Source: a virus. From it: 42,820 bases of DNA. Made by a program: the position numbers and the translations under genes. This document shows positions 5,022 through 39,621 of this stretch, piece after piece. The stretch is from positions 1 to 42,820 of the IMG/VR virus record IMGVR_UViG_3300035698_004635; one strand, given 5' to 3'. The number at the start of each line of letters is the position of its first letter. The first letter of the stretch is position 1. The notes beneath the pieces are model-generated. The model searched no databases, was not told where the DNA came from, and worked only from the letters and a program-made list of their open reading frames with translations.

Positions 5022-5050
5022 ATAGTAATAAAATTATACTTATTTGTCAA
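5022..5050 (-). promoter_or_regulatory. Sigma-70-type promoter of helicase-methyltransferase operon
   Basis: TTGACA (5050-5045), a 17-bp spacer and TACTAT (5027-5022) on the minus strand. The start point would fall near 5015, exactly where the structured leader begins. The promoter overlaps the 3' end of the gene at 5040-5204. Confidence 0.72.
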
Positions 5051-5204
5051 GTGTTTTCTTTTGCTTAAAACATGGATGATTCTGAGCTTCGTTACTTTCA
5101 TAGTTAAACCATGCTTCATTTTTAATATGACTTTCGTCTTTATAGTCTGGGCGTTCACAGTTTTTTCGTTGAGGGCAAGTTGTATTTGTGCATCTTACAG
5201 ACAT
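5040..5204 (-). CDS. Small Cys-containing protein, 54 aa
   Basis: The gene starts at ATG 5204, overlapping the stop codon of the upstream membrane protein (TAATG), with GGGGT as ribosome binding site. Residues C5, C10, C16 and C45 are spaced like a small zinc-binding protein (RCTNTTCPQRKNC). The rest is hydrophilic. No family is recognised. Its last codons contain the promoter of the helicase operon. Confidence 0.68.
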   Translation of the reverse strand: MSVRCTNTTCPQRKNCERPDYKDESHIKNEAWFNYESNEAQNHPCFKQKKTLDK

Positions 5205-8631: not shown

Positions 8632-8658
8632 ACCGACCTCACTTTTGTTATTTGATAT

Positions 8659-8687
8659 AATTTAATTCAGGTTTACTTGAAAGTCAA
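8659..8687 (-). promoter_or_regulatory. recT promoter with CTTGACTTTCAAG palindrome
   Basis: TTGACT (8687-8682), 17 bp, TAAATT (8664-8659) on the minus strand. The -35 lies in the palindrome CTTGA-CTT-TCAAG (8688-8676), which recurs at three other promoters and may bind a regulator. Confidence 0.6.
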
Positions 8688-8710
8688 GTGTTTTTATTTA
8701 TTTGTTTCTT

Positions 8711-8769: not shown

Positions 8770-9081
8770 TTATTGTCCTTGCACTGCGGTTTTAAAATGA
8801 TCGTAACCTCTGTATTTATTTTTAATGTAGTTAAAAAGATCAGTTTTAGTTACAGTAATATTGTAAGTTTCGTGAAGAAATCTACACTCATAAATAAATA
8901 CATCCTTGTCAATTTTAAAGTAAGTTGAATTGTGAGTGTCATTCCAAAATAAAAATCTTCCATCACCTTTATAATTTTCAGGCTTTAATTTTATATTTTT
9001 TAGAAATTTACTGTATACTTCATCTACTTCTTTTTTTATTTTTACATTCATTTCAAGTTCTTTAGTTTCTTCGTAGTTCAT
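8770..9081 (-). CDS. Cassette-borne protein, 103 aa
   Basis: A hydrophilic, Lys-rich alpha/beta protein (NYEETKELEMNVKIKKEVDE at the N-terminus) with no family recognised. The ribosome binding site is TTAGGAG before ATG 9081. It is alone between elements I and L. Its leader and trailer are homologous to those of the cassette gene at 1813-2004, while the coding sequences are unrelated. Confidence 0.65.
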   Translation of the reverse strand: MNYEETKELEMNVKIKKEVDEVYSKFLKNIKLKPENYKGDGRFLFWNDTHNSTYFKIDKDVFIYECRFLHETYNITVTKTDLFNYIKNKYRGYDHFKTAVQGQ

Positions 9082-9114
9082 GTATTACTCCTAATTTATT
9101 ATTTATTTTCACAT

Positions 9115-9178
9115 CTACTAACAATTAAAAAATGATAATTTGTAAACTGCAATCACTTTTTTTCATCTCCGTTATATC
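9115..9178 (-). repeat. attC-like cassette boundary element I
   Basis: Left box GATATAAC, arm ATGAAAAAA (9166-9158) pairing with TTTTTTAAT (9132-9124) apart from one mismatch, inner pairs TGA/TCA, TTTACA (9146-9141) in the loop, and right box GTTAGTAG (9122-9115). Confidence 0.72.
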
Positions 9179-9182
9179 CCAA

Positions 9183-9455
9183 CTATTTCCCTTTAATTTT
9201 TCCCACTCTTTTAAAGTGTTCTTTAATCCCCGAAACCAATCTTATCAAGGCATCGTCACTTAATCTAATACAAGTTCTTACAGCTTTACCTTTTAATATT
9301 GTATGTGATGTTCTTGGACTTATGTCACCATCCATTATATCGAATATACATGCAGCACCGTCACTTTTAGAATTTTTTGGTTTCTCAAATACCCCAACAC
9401 TTCTATTGTTGAAGTGGTATTTAATACCATTTTTATATGACTTTATTTTATGCAC
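9183..9455 (-). CDS. Cassette-borne protein, 90 aa (GTG start)
   Basis: The gene starts at GTG 9455, five bases after AAGGAG. The product is basic, with a middle segment FDIMDGDISPRTSHTIL. No family is recognised. It is alone between elements H and I; cassette start GTTATACCC and end GGATATAAC are complementary at 8 of 9 positions. Confidence 0.62.
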   Translation of the reverse strand: MHKIKSYKNGIKYHFNNRSVGVFEKPKNSKSDGAACIFDIMDGDISPRTSHTILKGKAVRTCIRLSDDALIRLVSGIKEHFKRVGKIKGK

Positions 9456-9576: not shown

Positions 9577-9741
9577 TTAATCTTTATCATGTTTGCTCAG
9601 TTTTTTACGTAGTTTCTCTATTAGTAATTCTTTTTCTAACAAGTTCTGTCTTAATTTCTGCGTATGCTCCTGTACTATCTTACAATCTTCAACATTGCAT
9701 CCGTGCATTAATCCACATATTTCCTTGCACATATCAGTCAT
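9577..9741 (-). CDS. Cassette-borne coiled-coil protein, 54 aa
   Basis: The gene starts at ATG 9741 after TAGGAG. Five cysteines or histidines fall in the first 20 residues (C5, C9, H13, C15, C20), suggesting a metal site. Residues 22-50 form a Lys/Leu-rich amphipathic helix (ENLLEKELLIEKLRKKL-like). It is alone between elements F and H. Too short for confident family assignment. Confidence 0.6.
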   Translation of the reverse strand: MTDMCKEICGLMHGCNVEDCKIVQEHTQKLRQNLLEKELLIEKLRKKLSKHDKD

Positions 9742-9786: not shown

Positions 9787-9844
9787 AATACAACATCAAA
9801 AAACATCTATTTGTAAACAACATCTTTTTTCGTAGCGTTACTCT
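9787..9844 (-). repeat. attC-like cassette boundary element F
   Basis: Left box AGAGTAAC overlaps the stop codon of the gene at 9838. Spacer GCTA, arm CGAAAAA pairing with TTTTTTG (9803-9797), loop TTTACA (9817-9812), right box GTTGTATT (9794-9787). Nearly identical to element B on the opposite strand 7.4 kb away. Confidence 0.74.
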
Positions 9845-11406: not shown

Positions 11407-11435
11407 AAGATAACTATAAAATCCTTGAAAGTCAA
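11407..11435 (-). promoter_or_regulatory. Promoter of YqaJ operon with CTTGACTTTCAAG palindrome
   Basis: TTGACT (11435-11430), 17 bp, TATCTT (11412-11407) on the minus strand, with palindrome CTTGA-CTT-TCAAG at 11436-11424. It follows the tandem terminators, which fits a new transcription unit. Confidence 0.62.
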
Positions 11436-11463
11436 GTTTTATTTTAATTATTTTTAGGCAAAT

Positions 11464-16823: not shown

Positions 16824-16862
16824 CACAACGGAGAAATATTATCACAATGAAAAAGAAAACAC

Positions 16863-16891
16863 TTGACTTTCAAGTAATATATTACTAGATT
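16863..16891 (+). promoter_or_regulatory. Plus-strand promoter with CTTGACTTTCAAG palindrome
   Basis: TTGACT (16863-16868), 17 bp, TAGATT (16886-16891), with the palindrome at 16862-16874. It would drive the two-cassette plus-strand island that begins three bases later. Confidence 0.55.
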
Positions 16892-16893
16892 GT

Positions 16894-16958
16894 ATATGAA
16901 CGCTACAACAAAAAGAAAGTACGATGTTTACAGTATTTATATTTGTTGATGTTGTACG
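16894..16958 (+). repeat. attC-like cassette boundary element A
   Basis: Left box ATATGAAC, spacer GCTA, arm CAACAAA (16906-16912) pairing perfectly with TTTGTTG (16942-16948), TTTACA (16927-16932) in the loop, right box GTTGTACG (16951-16958). Arm sequence differs from all other elements yet pairs fully. Confidence 0.75.
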
Positions 16959-16995
16959 ATGTGGAACTAAACTAAAACTAATTGAGGAATATAAG

Positions 16996-17178
16996 ATGAC
17001 AAATGAAGGATTAAAAGAAAGAATAGAAACACTTGGAGTAATCTTATTGATAGCACTCGGAGTATTATCAATTATAATTGTTTTTATGATAGATAAATCC
17101 AACCAAAATACAAAAGATAGAATAGACATACACTTTAAAAATATCAATAAAAAGATAGACACAATAATATTAAAGTAA
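16996..17178 (+). CDS. Cassette-borne small membrane protein, 60 aa
   Basis: Start ATG 16996 after TTGAGGAA. An upstream in-frame ATG at 16924 would run through element A and lacks a binding site. Residues 13-34 (LGVILLIALGVLSIIIVFMI) form one transmembrane helix, followed by a basic, helical tail. It is alone between elements A and B; cassette start GTTGTACGA is the exact reverse complement of its end TCGTACAAC. Function unknown. Confidence 0.7.
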   Translation: MTNEGLKERIETLGVILLIALGVLSIIIVFMIDKSNQNTKDRIDIHFKNINKKIDTIILK

Positions 17179-17186
17179 AATAGTTT

Positions 17187-17245
17187 CGTACAACGCTACG
17201 AAAAAAGATGTTGTTTACAAATAGATATTTTTTTGATGTTATACT
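17187..17245 (+). repeat. attC-like cassette boundary element B
   Basis: Left box CGTACAAC (17187-17194), spacer GCTA, arm CGAAAAAA (17199-17206) pairing with TTTTTTTG (17228-17235), TTTACA (17214-17219) in the loop, right box GTTATACT (17238-17245). TGTTATACT also resembles an extended -10. Confidence 0.76.
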
Positions 17246-35965: not shown

Positions 35966-36002
35966 TTTGTATCTCCCTTTGTTTCAGTTAATTTCTATAT
36001 AC

Positions 36003-36031
36003 AATATAACTCTAGAATACTTAACTGTCAA
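36003..36031 (-). promoter_or_regulatory. Strong sigma-70-type promoter
   Basis: TTGACA (36031-36026), 17 bp, TATATT (36008-36003) on the minus strand; drives the small-gene operon 35965-34371. Confidence 0.72.
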
Positions 36032-36043
36032 GTGTTTTCTTTT

Positions 36044-36658: not shown

Positions 36659-36970
36659 TTAGTATAAATCTTCACTGTATAACTGACCACCACGAATAAG
36701 GCTTGGATCAATTACTTGGTTGTTCTTTAATGCTATTTCAAGACCTTTCTTCCTATCTACAAACCTATTCTGAGAAGTTACAAAGCCTTGTTCTTTGTTT
36801 AGTTTGCCAATCTGTTCTCTTGTTCTTGACCATGATAGGTTGTCATTTATAGCAGCGAAACAATGATTATGTCTGTGTCCATAATAAATTTTATCATTTA
36901 CTTTAATCGCTGCACATATTATAATTTCTTCTGCTCTTATTCTGTCTGCTACTCTGAATGGGTTATCCAT
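36659..36970 (-). CDS. Cassette-borne phage protein, 103 aa
   Basis: MDNPFRVADRIRAEEIIICA and IYYGHRHNHCFAAI (about residues 28-41, His/Cys-rich) then TSQNRFVDRKKGLEIALKNN. This His-rich pattern is shared by small hypothetical proteins of several phages as far as I recall, but has no assigned role. Alone between elements D and T2; ribosome site GGAGAGG. Confidence 0.68.
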   Translation of the reverse strand: MDNPFRVADRIRAEEIIICAAIKVNDKIYYGHRHNHCFAAINDNLSWSRTREQIGKLNKEQGFVTSQNRFVDRKKGLEIALKNNQVIDPSLIRGGQLYSEDLY

Positions 36971-37069: not shown

Positions 37070-37258
37070 CTATTGTCCTTGTGGATATACTATTTTTCTT
37101 AACTTACATCTTAATTCTGAAATATCTTCTATTAGTGGAGTGTATATTCCATGATGCCTTAGTCTGTCCTCGAACTCTTGCCATTCTTCTACTGTCATTG
37201 TTATTTTCATTGTTACATTTATTTTATCAGGTTTATCAATCATTGCTCTTACTTCCAT
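37070..37258 (-). CDS. Cassette-borne small protein, 62 aa
   Basis: Ribosome site AAAGGAG before ATG 37258. Amphipathic alpha/beta (NVTMKITMTVEEWQEFEDRL), perhaps a ribbon-helix-helix-like dimer, but unproven. Alone between elements K and D; cassette ends complementary at 7 of 8 positions. Confidence 0.65.
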   Translation of the reverse strand: MEVRAMIDKPDKINVTMKITMTVEEWQEFEDRLRHHGIYTPLIEDISELRCKLRKIVYPQGQ

Positions 37259-38054: not shown

Positions 38055-38084
38055 TTCGTTTTCTCATTTGTTTTACTTGGATAT

Positions 38085-38113
38085 AATATATAATCATATT
38101 ACTTGAAAGTCAA
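38085..38113 (-). promoter_or_regulatory. dnaC promoter with CTTGACTTTCAAG palindrome
   Basis: TTGACT (38113-38108), 17 bp, TATATT (38090-38085) on the minus strand; palindrome at 38114-38102. Confidence 0.68.
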
Positions 38114-38119
38114 GGGTTT

Positions 38120-38170
38120 TATACAACTATGAAAAAAGCCGTTGCACTCATTTTTTTCATATGTTGTGCC
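38120..38170 (-). repeat. attC-like cassette boundary element T1 (array end)
   Basis: Left box GGCACAAC, arm ATGAAAAAA pairing with TTTTTTCAT (nine pairs), loop region as in T2, right box GTTGTATA. With two more bases the left box is the reverse complement of the RtcB cassette start GTTGTGCCTA (10 of 10). Confidence 0.75.
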
Positions 38171-38173
38171 TAA

Positions 38174-39340
38174 TTAACCTTTAACAACAGCGAGTGGCTT
38201 TAACTCTACCAATATGCTCACAAGGTCTGATTGGTTATTCATTACAGTTTCAATATCCTTATATGCCCCTACTGATTCATCTAGGTCGGATTCACTTTTA
38301 ATGCTGTGTATCACATCCATATCTTGCATTATTTTAAGTTCATCTTTTAAATTAAGTTCCCTTTGTGCTTGTTTTCTACCCATTTTCCGACCTGCTCCAT
38401 GTGAGCATGAGCAGAAAGATTGCTTATTACCTAGTCCTTTAACTATATACGACTTAGAACCTTGTGACCCGGGTATAATGCCTATTTCTCCTTCTTTTGC
38501 AGAAGTAGCTCCTTTTCGGTGTATTATCACATTGTTCTTAAAGTGATTTTCAAATCTTGCGTAATTGTGTGCTATATTTATTATCTCATCAAATTCAATA
38601 TCAGAAAAAGATTGCTTGAATATTTCGCAGATATTACCTATCATAAGTTTTCTATTAGCTAATGCGAAATCTATACAGTATTGCATTTCTTTTCTGTATT
38701 GGTGTGCTTCATTTGATTTTAAAGGCAAGAATGCAAGTTCTTGTTTCTTATCTACAACTGAATGGTATTTTTCATTCAAATCTACAGCAACCTTATTATA
38801 ATGATTAGCTACTTTATATCCTAAGTTCCTTGAACCTGAGTGAATCATTATCCATATATGATTATCTGATCCTTTTTGTATCTCTATAAAATGATTTCCA
38901 CCGCCTAAAGTTCCAAGTTGTGTTCTTGCTGAATCGTATTGCTGTAAACAGATTGAATGAAAGCCATCTAATGTATTAAGAGATGGCATAAGATTTTCAT
39001 CTTGCATTCTTTCTTGGTGTTCAAATCCGACAGGTATTTTTTTTCTGATATCTTCTAGTATCAAAATAAGTTTATTTTTTGTTATTGAAGTAAGATTTGT
39101 TTTAACCGCACACATTCCACAACCAATATCTACACCTACAGCATTAGGTATTATCACATCTTTTGTTGCTAATACACCACCGATAGGCATTCCGTACCCT
39201 TGATGTGAGTCGGGCATTATAGCAATATGTTTAAATGCAAATGGTAAGTTTGCAAGGTTCTTAGTCTGATTTAAAGCACCATCTTCAATTTCTTCAAGCC
39301 ACATTTTTATTGGCAATCTTTCTGTTGAAATTACTTTCAT
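38174..39340 (-). CDS. rtcB: RNA-splicing ligase RtcB
   Basis: The protein has 388 residues, near full family length. All signature motifs are intact: DIGCGM (71-76, metal-binding Cys74), GGGNHF (146-151), HSGSR (167-171), HNYARFENH (258-266), HRKGATSA (274-281) and SHGAGR (313-318, with His314 forming the GMP adduct). RtcB joins 2',3'-cyclic-phosphate or 3'-phosphate RNA ends to 5'-hydroxyl ends, so it could repair tRNAs cut by host anticodon nucleases. It is the only long gene carried in a cassette, between elements E and T1. Confidence 0.95.
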   Translation of the reverse strand: MKVISTERLPIKMWLEEIEDGALNQTKNLANLPFAFKHIAIMPDSHQGYGMPIGGVLATKDVIIPNAVGVDIGCGMCAVKTNLTSITKNKLILILEDIRKKIPVGFEHQERMQDENLMPSLNTLDGFHSICLQQYDSARTQLGTLGGGNHFIEIQKGSDNHIWIMIHSGSRNLGYKVANHYNKVAVDLNEKYHSVVDKKQELAFLPLKSNEAHQYRKEMQYCIDFALANRKLMIGNICEIFKQSFSDIEFDEIINIAHNYARFENHFKNNVIIHRKGATSAKEGEIGIIPGSQGSKSYIVKGLGNKQSFCSCSHGAGRKMGRKQAQRELNLKDELKIMQDMDVIHSIKSESDLDESVGAYKDIETVMNNQSDLVSILVELKPLAVVKG

Positions 39341-39438: not shown

Positions 39439-39621
39439 CTATTTTTCTTTATCTTCATTTATTATTTCACAGCCAATAATAGTCCTAGTGAAGTAACTAT
39501 TTTTAATTCTTAAGAGTGACTCCATTTCCTCTAATTTATCAGATGTAAATGTCAGGTACTTATTTCCCACATTACTTCCATCGGGTATCATTTCGGCTTC
39601 TCTGATTATAAATCTTAACAT
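39439..39621 (-). CDS. Cassette-borne small protein, 60 aa
   Basis: Ribosome site AAAGGGG before ATG 39621. Mixed charged protein (MLRFIIREAEMIPDGSNVGN at the start). No family recognised. Alone between elements G and E. Confidence 0.62.
   Translation of the reverse strand: MLRFIIREAEMIPDGSNVGNKYLTFTSDKLEEMESLLRIKNSYFTRTIIGCEIINEDKEK

Follow-up and report, generated by a model that had tools for sequence, protein, structure and literature searches.

Results

The window, i.e. the whole stretch of DNA analysed here, is a viral record of 42,820 bases with a G+C content of 33.6%. It encodes a terminase, a portal protein, head and tail genes, RecE/RecT, a DnaC-like loader and a replication initiator. 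Ten small genes of this phage reside in units that start with GTT and end with AAC, and these units (cassettes C1 to C10) form five arrays at five loci. C1-C2 and C3-C4 (36.6-39.7 kb), C5-C7 (8.8-9.8 kb) and C8 (1.8-2.0 kb) are located on the minus strand, and C9-C10 on the plus strand at 17.0-17.5 kb. The gene of C2 (38163..39377) is rtcB (38174-39340), whose product of 388 amino acids has a Pfam match to RtcB of 2.7e-110. Most of the other genes code for proteins of 54 to 103 residues with weak family matches or none. On the minus strand, they comprise a 60-residue gene in C1 (39427..39658, gene 39439-39621), 62 residues in C3 (37054..37299, gene 37070-37258), 103 in C4 (36648..37002, gene 36659-36970), 54 in C5 (9550..9794, gene 9577-9741), 90 in C6 (9171..9500, gene 9183-9455), 103 in C7 (8759..9122, gene 8770-9081) and 63 in C8 (1802..2040, gene 1813-2004). 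The plus-strand cassettes C9 (16951..17194) and C10 (17238..17476) carry genes for 60 and 64 residues at 16996 and 17267, respectively.

Several features of these regions deserve mention in their own right. The region of C9-C10 (16840-17560) is a moron-like plus-strand insert amid minus-strand genes and has its own promoter-like and terminator-like sites. Conserved promoter-like sites are found at 5026-5062, 8655-8699, 16851-16897, 35997-36043 and 38081-38125, and also at 11416-11452; their sequences suggest a temperate-type early regulon. The palindrome CTTGACTTTCAAG, which spans the -35 box in several of these sites, is possibly a repressor operator. The flanks of C8 resemble those of C7: leaders (GTTAGYAGATGTGAAAATAAATAATAAAYTAGGAG) and ends (CAATAATTTCTACTAAC) of the two (8770-9122 and 1813-2040) are near-identical and the encoded proteins are without similarity, as though one gene had replaced another within a common frame. 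C8 contains an extra 8-nt complementary pair, GTTGCTTA/TAAGCAAC (2038-2091 and 1802-1822), that crosses its box pair and perhaps reflects chance or a relic boundary.

The preliminary description of this DNA had claimed that each cassette starts with the reverse complement of its own end and had proposed shuffled pairings as a check. The claim was borne out. The first nine and last nine nucleotides of the ten cassettes matched at 7.8 of 9 positions within cassettes and at 5.1 of 9 between cassettes (shuffled pairings, p 1.3e-5), and the difference persisted when AAC/GTT was left out (4.9 of 6 within versus 2.2 of 6 between, p 1.3e-5). Local alignments over 28 nt, likewise compared with shuffled pairings, gave p 3e-6, and complementarity continued outside the 9-nt boxes (p 0.0014). 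When each box family was represented by a single cassette, the true pairing ranked at the top of all 720 orders, which is equivalent to the minimum possible p of 0.0014. Element limits in this hand-curated test were placed by eye. The coordinates 16951-17194 given earlier for C9 are exact, and all box pairs quoted at that time are present.

Ungapped pairing is complete (9/9) in C9 (start GTTGTACGA, end TCGTACAAC), C4 and C7, and reaches 10/10 in the rtcB cassette (GTTGTGCCTA/TAGGCACAAC). Out of 9 positions, the remaining cassettes match at 6 (C1), 7 (C3), 7 (C5), 8 (C6), 8 (C8) and 6 (C10, GTTATACTG/GGATATAAC). A single gap raises several pairings, for example in C1, where TTTCGA pairs with TATAAC, i.e. 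TTTCGA(TTAG)TATAAC, and the extended pairing of C10 (GTAGTTTT...TATAAC) is a 19-column gapped alignment. Long pairing was observed over about 17 nt in C3 (14/17) and about 26 nt in C5. The two boxes flanking one internal element agree at no more than 4-6 of 9 positions, chiefly AAC/GTT, in agreement with the earlier remark that boxes on either side of a single element often do not fit each other beyond these triplets. For the outermost boxes of whole arrays, complementarity was not significant (p 0.11), and a search of the 42,820-nt record for unsplit sites with matched boxes revealed none that was convincing.

A scan by a fixed rule over the 64 called ORFs gave a score of at least 8 in four genes (0.65 expected) and of at least 9 in three genes (0.27 expected). 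This signal is weaker because gaps were disallowed and the gene at 16996, absent from the ORF calls, was missed; the 1813 gene, one of the four scoring at least 8, did so via a pair other than its assigned boxes. The start boxes are GTTGTAC, GTTATAC, GTTGTGC, GTTAGTA, GTTAGCA, GTTCAAA and GTTGTAT. They contain GTT/AAC itself but are GTTRTRY-like and deviate from the core consensus GTTRRRY/RYYYAAC. This deviation is not decisive, because the VIM-2 and arr-3 cassettes among our controls also depart from GTTRRRY (GTTATGC).

A hairpin element with GTTTACA in its loop is located upstream of each of the ten cassette genes. On the minus strand, these elements precede C1 (39656..39709), C2 (39375..39429), C3 (37297..37350), C4 (37000..37056), C5 (9792..9839), C6 (9498..9552), C7 (9120..9173) and C8 (2038..2091); on the plus strand, one precedes C9 (16899..16953) and one lies between C9 and C10 (17192..17240). 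The inner arms of every one of them pair. A conserved loop motif is unexpected for attC sites. Each array ends with an element of a different kind, the T-type (5/5). The element closing C1-C2 (38125..38165) is near-identical to that closing C3-C4 (36610..36650; both repeat family D6). The others follow C7 (8716..8761, hairpin z -4.1), C8 (1776..1804, a short version) and, on the plus strand, C10 (17474..17523, z -3.7 on the gene-sense strand); beyond the latter lies a terminator-like hairpin (about 17530). If hairpins are assigned to the upstream cassette, the chance of finding the five T-type elements on all five ends is 1/252, a post hoc figure.

Left and right arms between AAC and GTT pair better within their own element than across elements (p 1.3e-4; p 7e-4 with near-duplicate elements dropped). 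The junctions almost always carry AAC and GTT, and AAT replaces AAC in three of the ten GTTTACA-type sites. The elements at 9792-9839 and 17192-17240 share 98% identity in a 42-nt core (9798-9839 in the former), and their boxes differ on both sides. Such near-identical cores with differing outer boxes indicate that the inner stem is a property of the element and that the outer stem goes with the cassette. Taken one by one, the GTTTACA-type hairpins are no more stable than shuffled sequences, and an Rfam search returned no match. GTTTACA was also considered as part of a sigma-70 promoter and rejected, since TTTACA and any TATAC(T)-like box are 20-23 nt apart in the ten elements, as opposed to 16-18 nt between the -35 and -10 boxes of such promoters.

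The same pairing test was applied to known systems. Twelve class 1 integron cassettes from plasmids gave 8.67/9 within versus 5.72/9 between cassettes (p 3e-6), with pairing to 12 nt in several of them. Nine cassettes of flavobacterial phages gave 8.0/9 versus 5.1/9 (p 1.5e-5; past 9 nt p 6e-4). An automatic scan produced a signal from six or seven cassettes in Vibrio phage Va_90-11-286_p16, which carries a known integron, a weaker signal from methyltransferase cassettes in the known phage CALIN of P12002L, and nothing in TJE1 under the same rule.

Exact insertions of whole units directly after AAC are visible in other phages, namely in the pairs Flavobacterium filifjonk9-1/mumin6-1 and Polaribacter P12002L/P12002S, which are near-identical within each pair. 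In P12002S, an upstream gene and a hairpin-plus-methyltransferase that are the same in P12002L are separated by an additional methyltransferase unit, with breakpoints directly after AAC. Comparison of filifjonk with mumin revealed an inserted block between CACTAAC and GTTCTCGTGG, and the hairpin remains with the downstream gene. The inserted cassettes in the flavobacterial phages mostly carry methyltransferase genes, and a related methyltransferase gene is present in Cellulophaga phage phi12:1.

Searches for close relatives of our phage in IMG/VR with TerL, RecT, RtcB, the C4 protein and DNA patterns yielded distant or chance matches only. DNA similarity to phages and plasmids was absent or confined to an AT-rich chance match, and the four matches of the element pattern in bacterial genomes were all due to chance. 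The nearest relatives of rtcB in IMG/VR (57-68% identity) have flanks devoid of such boxes.

In the 42.8 kb of this possibly incomplete record, neither an integron integrase (TIGR02249, E<=0.001) nor any tyrosine recombinase (PF00589, E<=1) was detected. An attI site or a Pc promoter was not identified either, so that the combination defining a complete integron (intI, attI and Pc beside the array) is absent from the record. No tyrosine recombinase was found in P12002L/S, mumin, filifjonk and phi12:1.

Discussion

We interpret the ten genes as phage-borne integron-type cassettes in five short arrays, in a record that lacks an integrase and is CALIN-like in this respect; we assign this reading a probability of about 0.78. 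An attC site that is split upon insertion of a circular cassette predicts both pairing layers, i.e. outer pairing between the two ends of a cassette and inner pairing within an element. According to this model, each unit would once have been circular, with end box, hairpin and start box together making up an uninterrupted attC-like hairpin. A tyrosine recombinase supplied in trans, such as a host IntI or a similar enzyme, would act on the folded single strand and join the circle to a resident site, so that each end of the cassette would receive one of the outer boxes. As no close relative was found, and hence no gain or loss of a cassette was seen in this lineage, recombination in this phage is deduced from its traces. 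The split attC site of the preliminary description has thus fared best among the readings, in view of the class 1 control, the inner arms and the insertions in flavobacterial phages. The part that stands less well is its fit to a standard integron, as the record has no integrase and the polarity looks reversed. The absent enzyme is the main gap; the host or a missing part of the genome must supply it, unless it is of another kind.

The complementarity alone had been taken to imply a circular intermediate. This was too strong, as the outer layer could also result from an RNA helix or from terminal inverted repeats. If the start and end boxes paired in the transcript, they would form a helix enclosing the gene, and the intergenic hairpins would be RNA structures serving processing, stability or weak termination. 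The transcript could indeed form both pairing layers. Furthermore, inner-arm wobble on the gene-sense strand amounts to 15 G.T versus 0 A.C, and the two terminal hairpins with the z scores given above are strong on the sense strand. Against this, wobble is unbiased (4 to 5) over the initial 10 positions of the boxes, and the greater stability of sense over antisense hairpins is mostly an effect of base composition (p 0.04), for which reason the folding bias does not prove an RNA function. In the case of rtcB, such a helix would have to span 1.2 kb of translated sequence, it does not predict invariant AAC/GTT and exact breakpoints after AAC in other phages, and the outer pairing is equally present in true integron cassettes. 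We therefore regard it as unlikely, although it is the rival to which we give most weight.

Regulatory repeats account for the inner layer at most. PeSL cassettes of T4-type phages consist of a stem-loop and a promoter-like motif between small phage genes and are thought to shuffle genes. A similar role of the elements described here, in which GTTTACA would be the -35 box and the repeats would undergo homologous recombination, would agree with the presence of GTTTACA upstream of 10/10 genes and with the occurrence of GTTTACA...GATGTTGTAC in some T4-type contigs. To our knowledge, complementarity between the ends of a gene unit has not been described for PeSL cassettes. Regulatory repeats do not predict it, a point on which we agree with the earlier statement about promoter and terminator repeats, and several operons already possess TTGACT...TATAAT-like promoters. 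This explanation appears quite improbable. Slightly less probable still are elements with terminal inverted repeats that a transposase-like enzyme had mobilized, with incidental hairpins between them. The outer complementarity by itself resembles repeats of 9-26 nt. Its sequence, however, varies among the cassettes of one genome, which is unlike a single transposon family, no target duplications were noticed, and no transposase or recombinase was among the proteins scanned, which represent part of the ORFs. Terminal inverted repeats provide the outer layer only and leave the arm pairing within elements and the shared cores unexplained. Neither an RNA helix nor terminal inverted repeats would produce the combination of both layers with nearly invariant AAC/GTT.

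Assuming integron-type cassettes, the polarity of the sites relative to the genes is probably reversed compared to a standard integron. To judge from the order of genes and elements and from the flavobacterial insertions, the hairpin seems to travel with its downstream gene, i.e. on the 5' side of the gene, with the cut at the AAC box rather than between G and TT of GTT. Viewed from the other strand, the arrays would be canonical, with the T-type element in the position of attI and every gene directed towards it. From that side, the flavobacterial insertions correspond to ordinary integron insertion between G and TT, the genes being inverted with respect to their attC. Extrahelical bases determine which strand recombines (PMC2727003), and extra bases on the right arm would thus fit reversed sites. 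The ratio of extra bases in the inner stem (left:right arm) ranges from 2:19 to 13:15 in our record, depending on the alignment setting and about even in stricter ones, as compared to up to 23:1 in class 1 cassettes and 12:0 in Vibrio. In gene orientation, the extrahelical bases of this record do not concentrate on the arm beside the AAC box. As the elements are interrelated and the count depends on the alignment, this evidence is weak on its own. G.T pairs lie on the gene-sense strand, a pattern that selection on RNA would produce as well. A more far-reaching, tentative version, to which we would give clearly less than even odds, is a mirrored phage-specific system common to this phage and the flavobacterial phages in spite of their unrelated hosts. 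Here, the folded gene-sense strand would recombine at the AAC box with the hairpin 5' of the gene, the T-type sites at the five loci would serve as landing platforms, and the enzyme would act in trans.

The cassettes share the essential layout of class 1 and Vibrio cassettes with their attC sites (59-base elements): outer boxes that are complementary within a cassette and mismatched across the junction, shared cores with cassette-specific boxes, and AAC...GTT limits. In most attC sites, outer pairing comprises 9-11 nt, and AAC/GTT alone is conserved (PMC2727003). In contrast to class 1 and Vibrio systems, the phage record lacks IntI, attI and Pc, its boxes are GTTRTRY-like, extrahelical bases are off the canonical arm in gene orientation, and the order of gene and hairpin is reversed. 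Virulent phages carry clusters of attC sites without an integrase, and five of six sites tested were active with IntI1 (PMC9892861). The Polaribacter phage P12002L (NC_028924), a phage CALIN (Qi et al. 2023), resembles our phage in having several small cassettes and no tyrosine recombinase or integrase, and in details such as end pairing past the box within cassettes, sites starting with AACG, a longer spacer on the AAC side and G.T pairs on the sense strand. Our phage differs by the number and distribution of its cassettes (ten, in five arrays that occupy both strands), by a conserved GTTTACA in the loop, by unrelated genes and by Shine-Dalgarno-like leaders. Va_90-11-286_p16 (MK672802) also contains phage-borne cassettes with 9-10 nt of end complementarity but encodes tyrosine recombinases and has long Vibrio-type attC sites in a single contiguous array. 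The analogy with the flavobacterial phages is one of architecture rather than of demonstrated kinship.

A survey of integron cassettes in phages did not appear until 2023 and showed them to be infrequent. Ten cassettes at five loci, together with the exact insertions in flavobacterial phages, suggest that some phages diversify small accessory genes by cassette capture. If the reversed polarity is true, it bears on how attC recombination selects strand and orientation, a choice attributed in the literature to a single extrahelical base. In that case, standard attC finders, which rely on the usual orientation and on training with GTTRRRY, would likely miss such sites.
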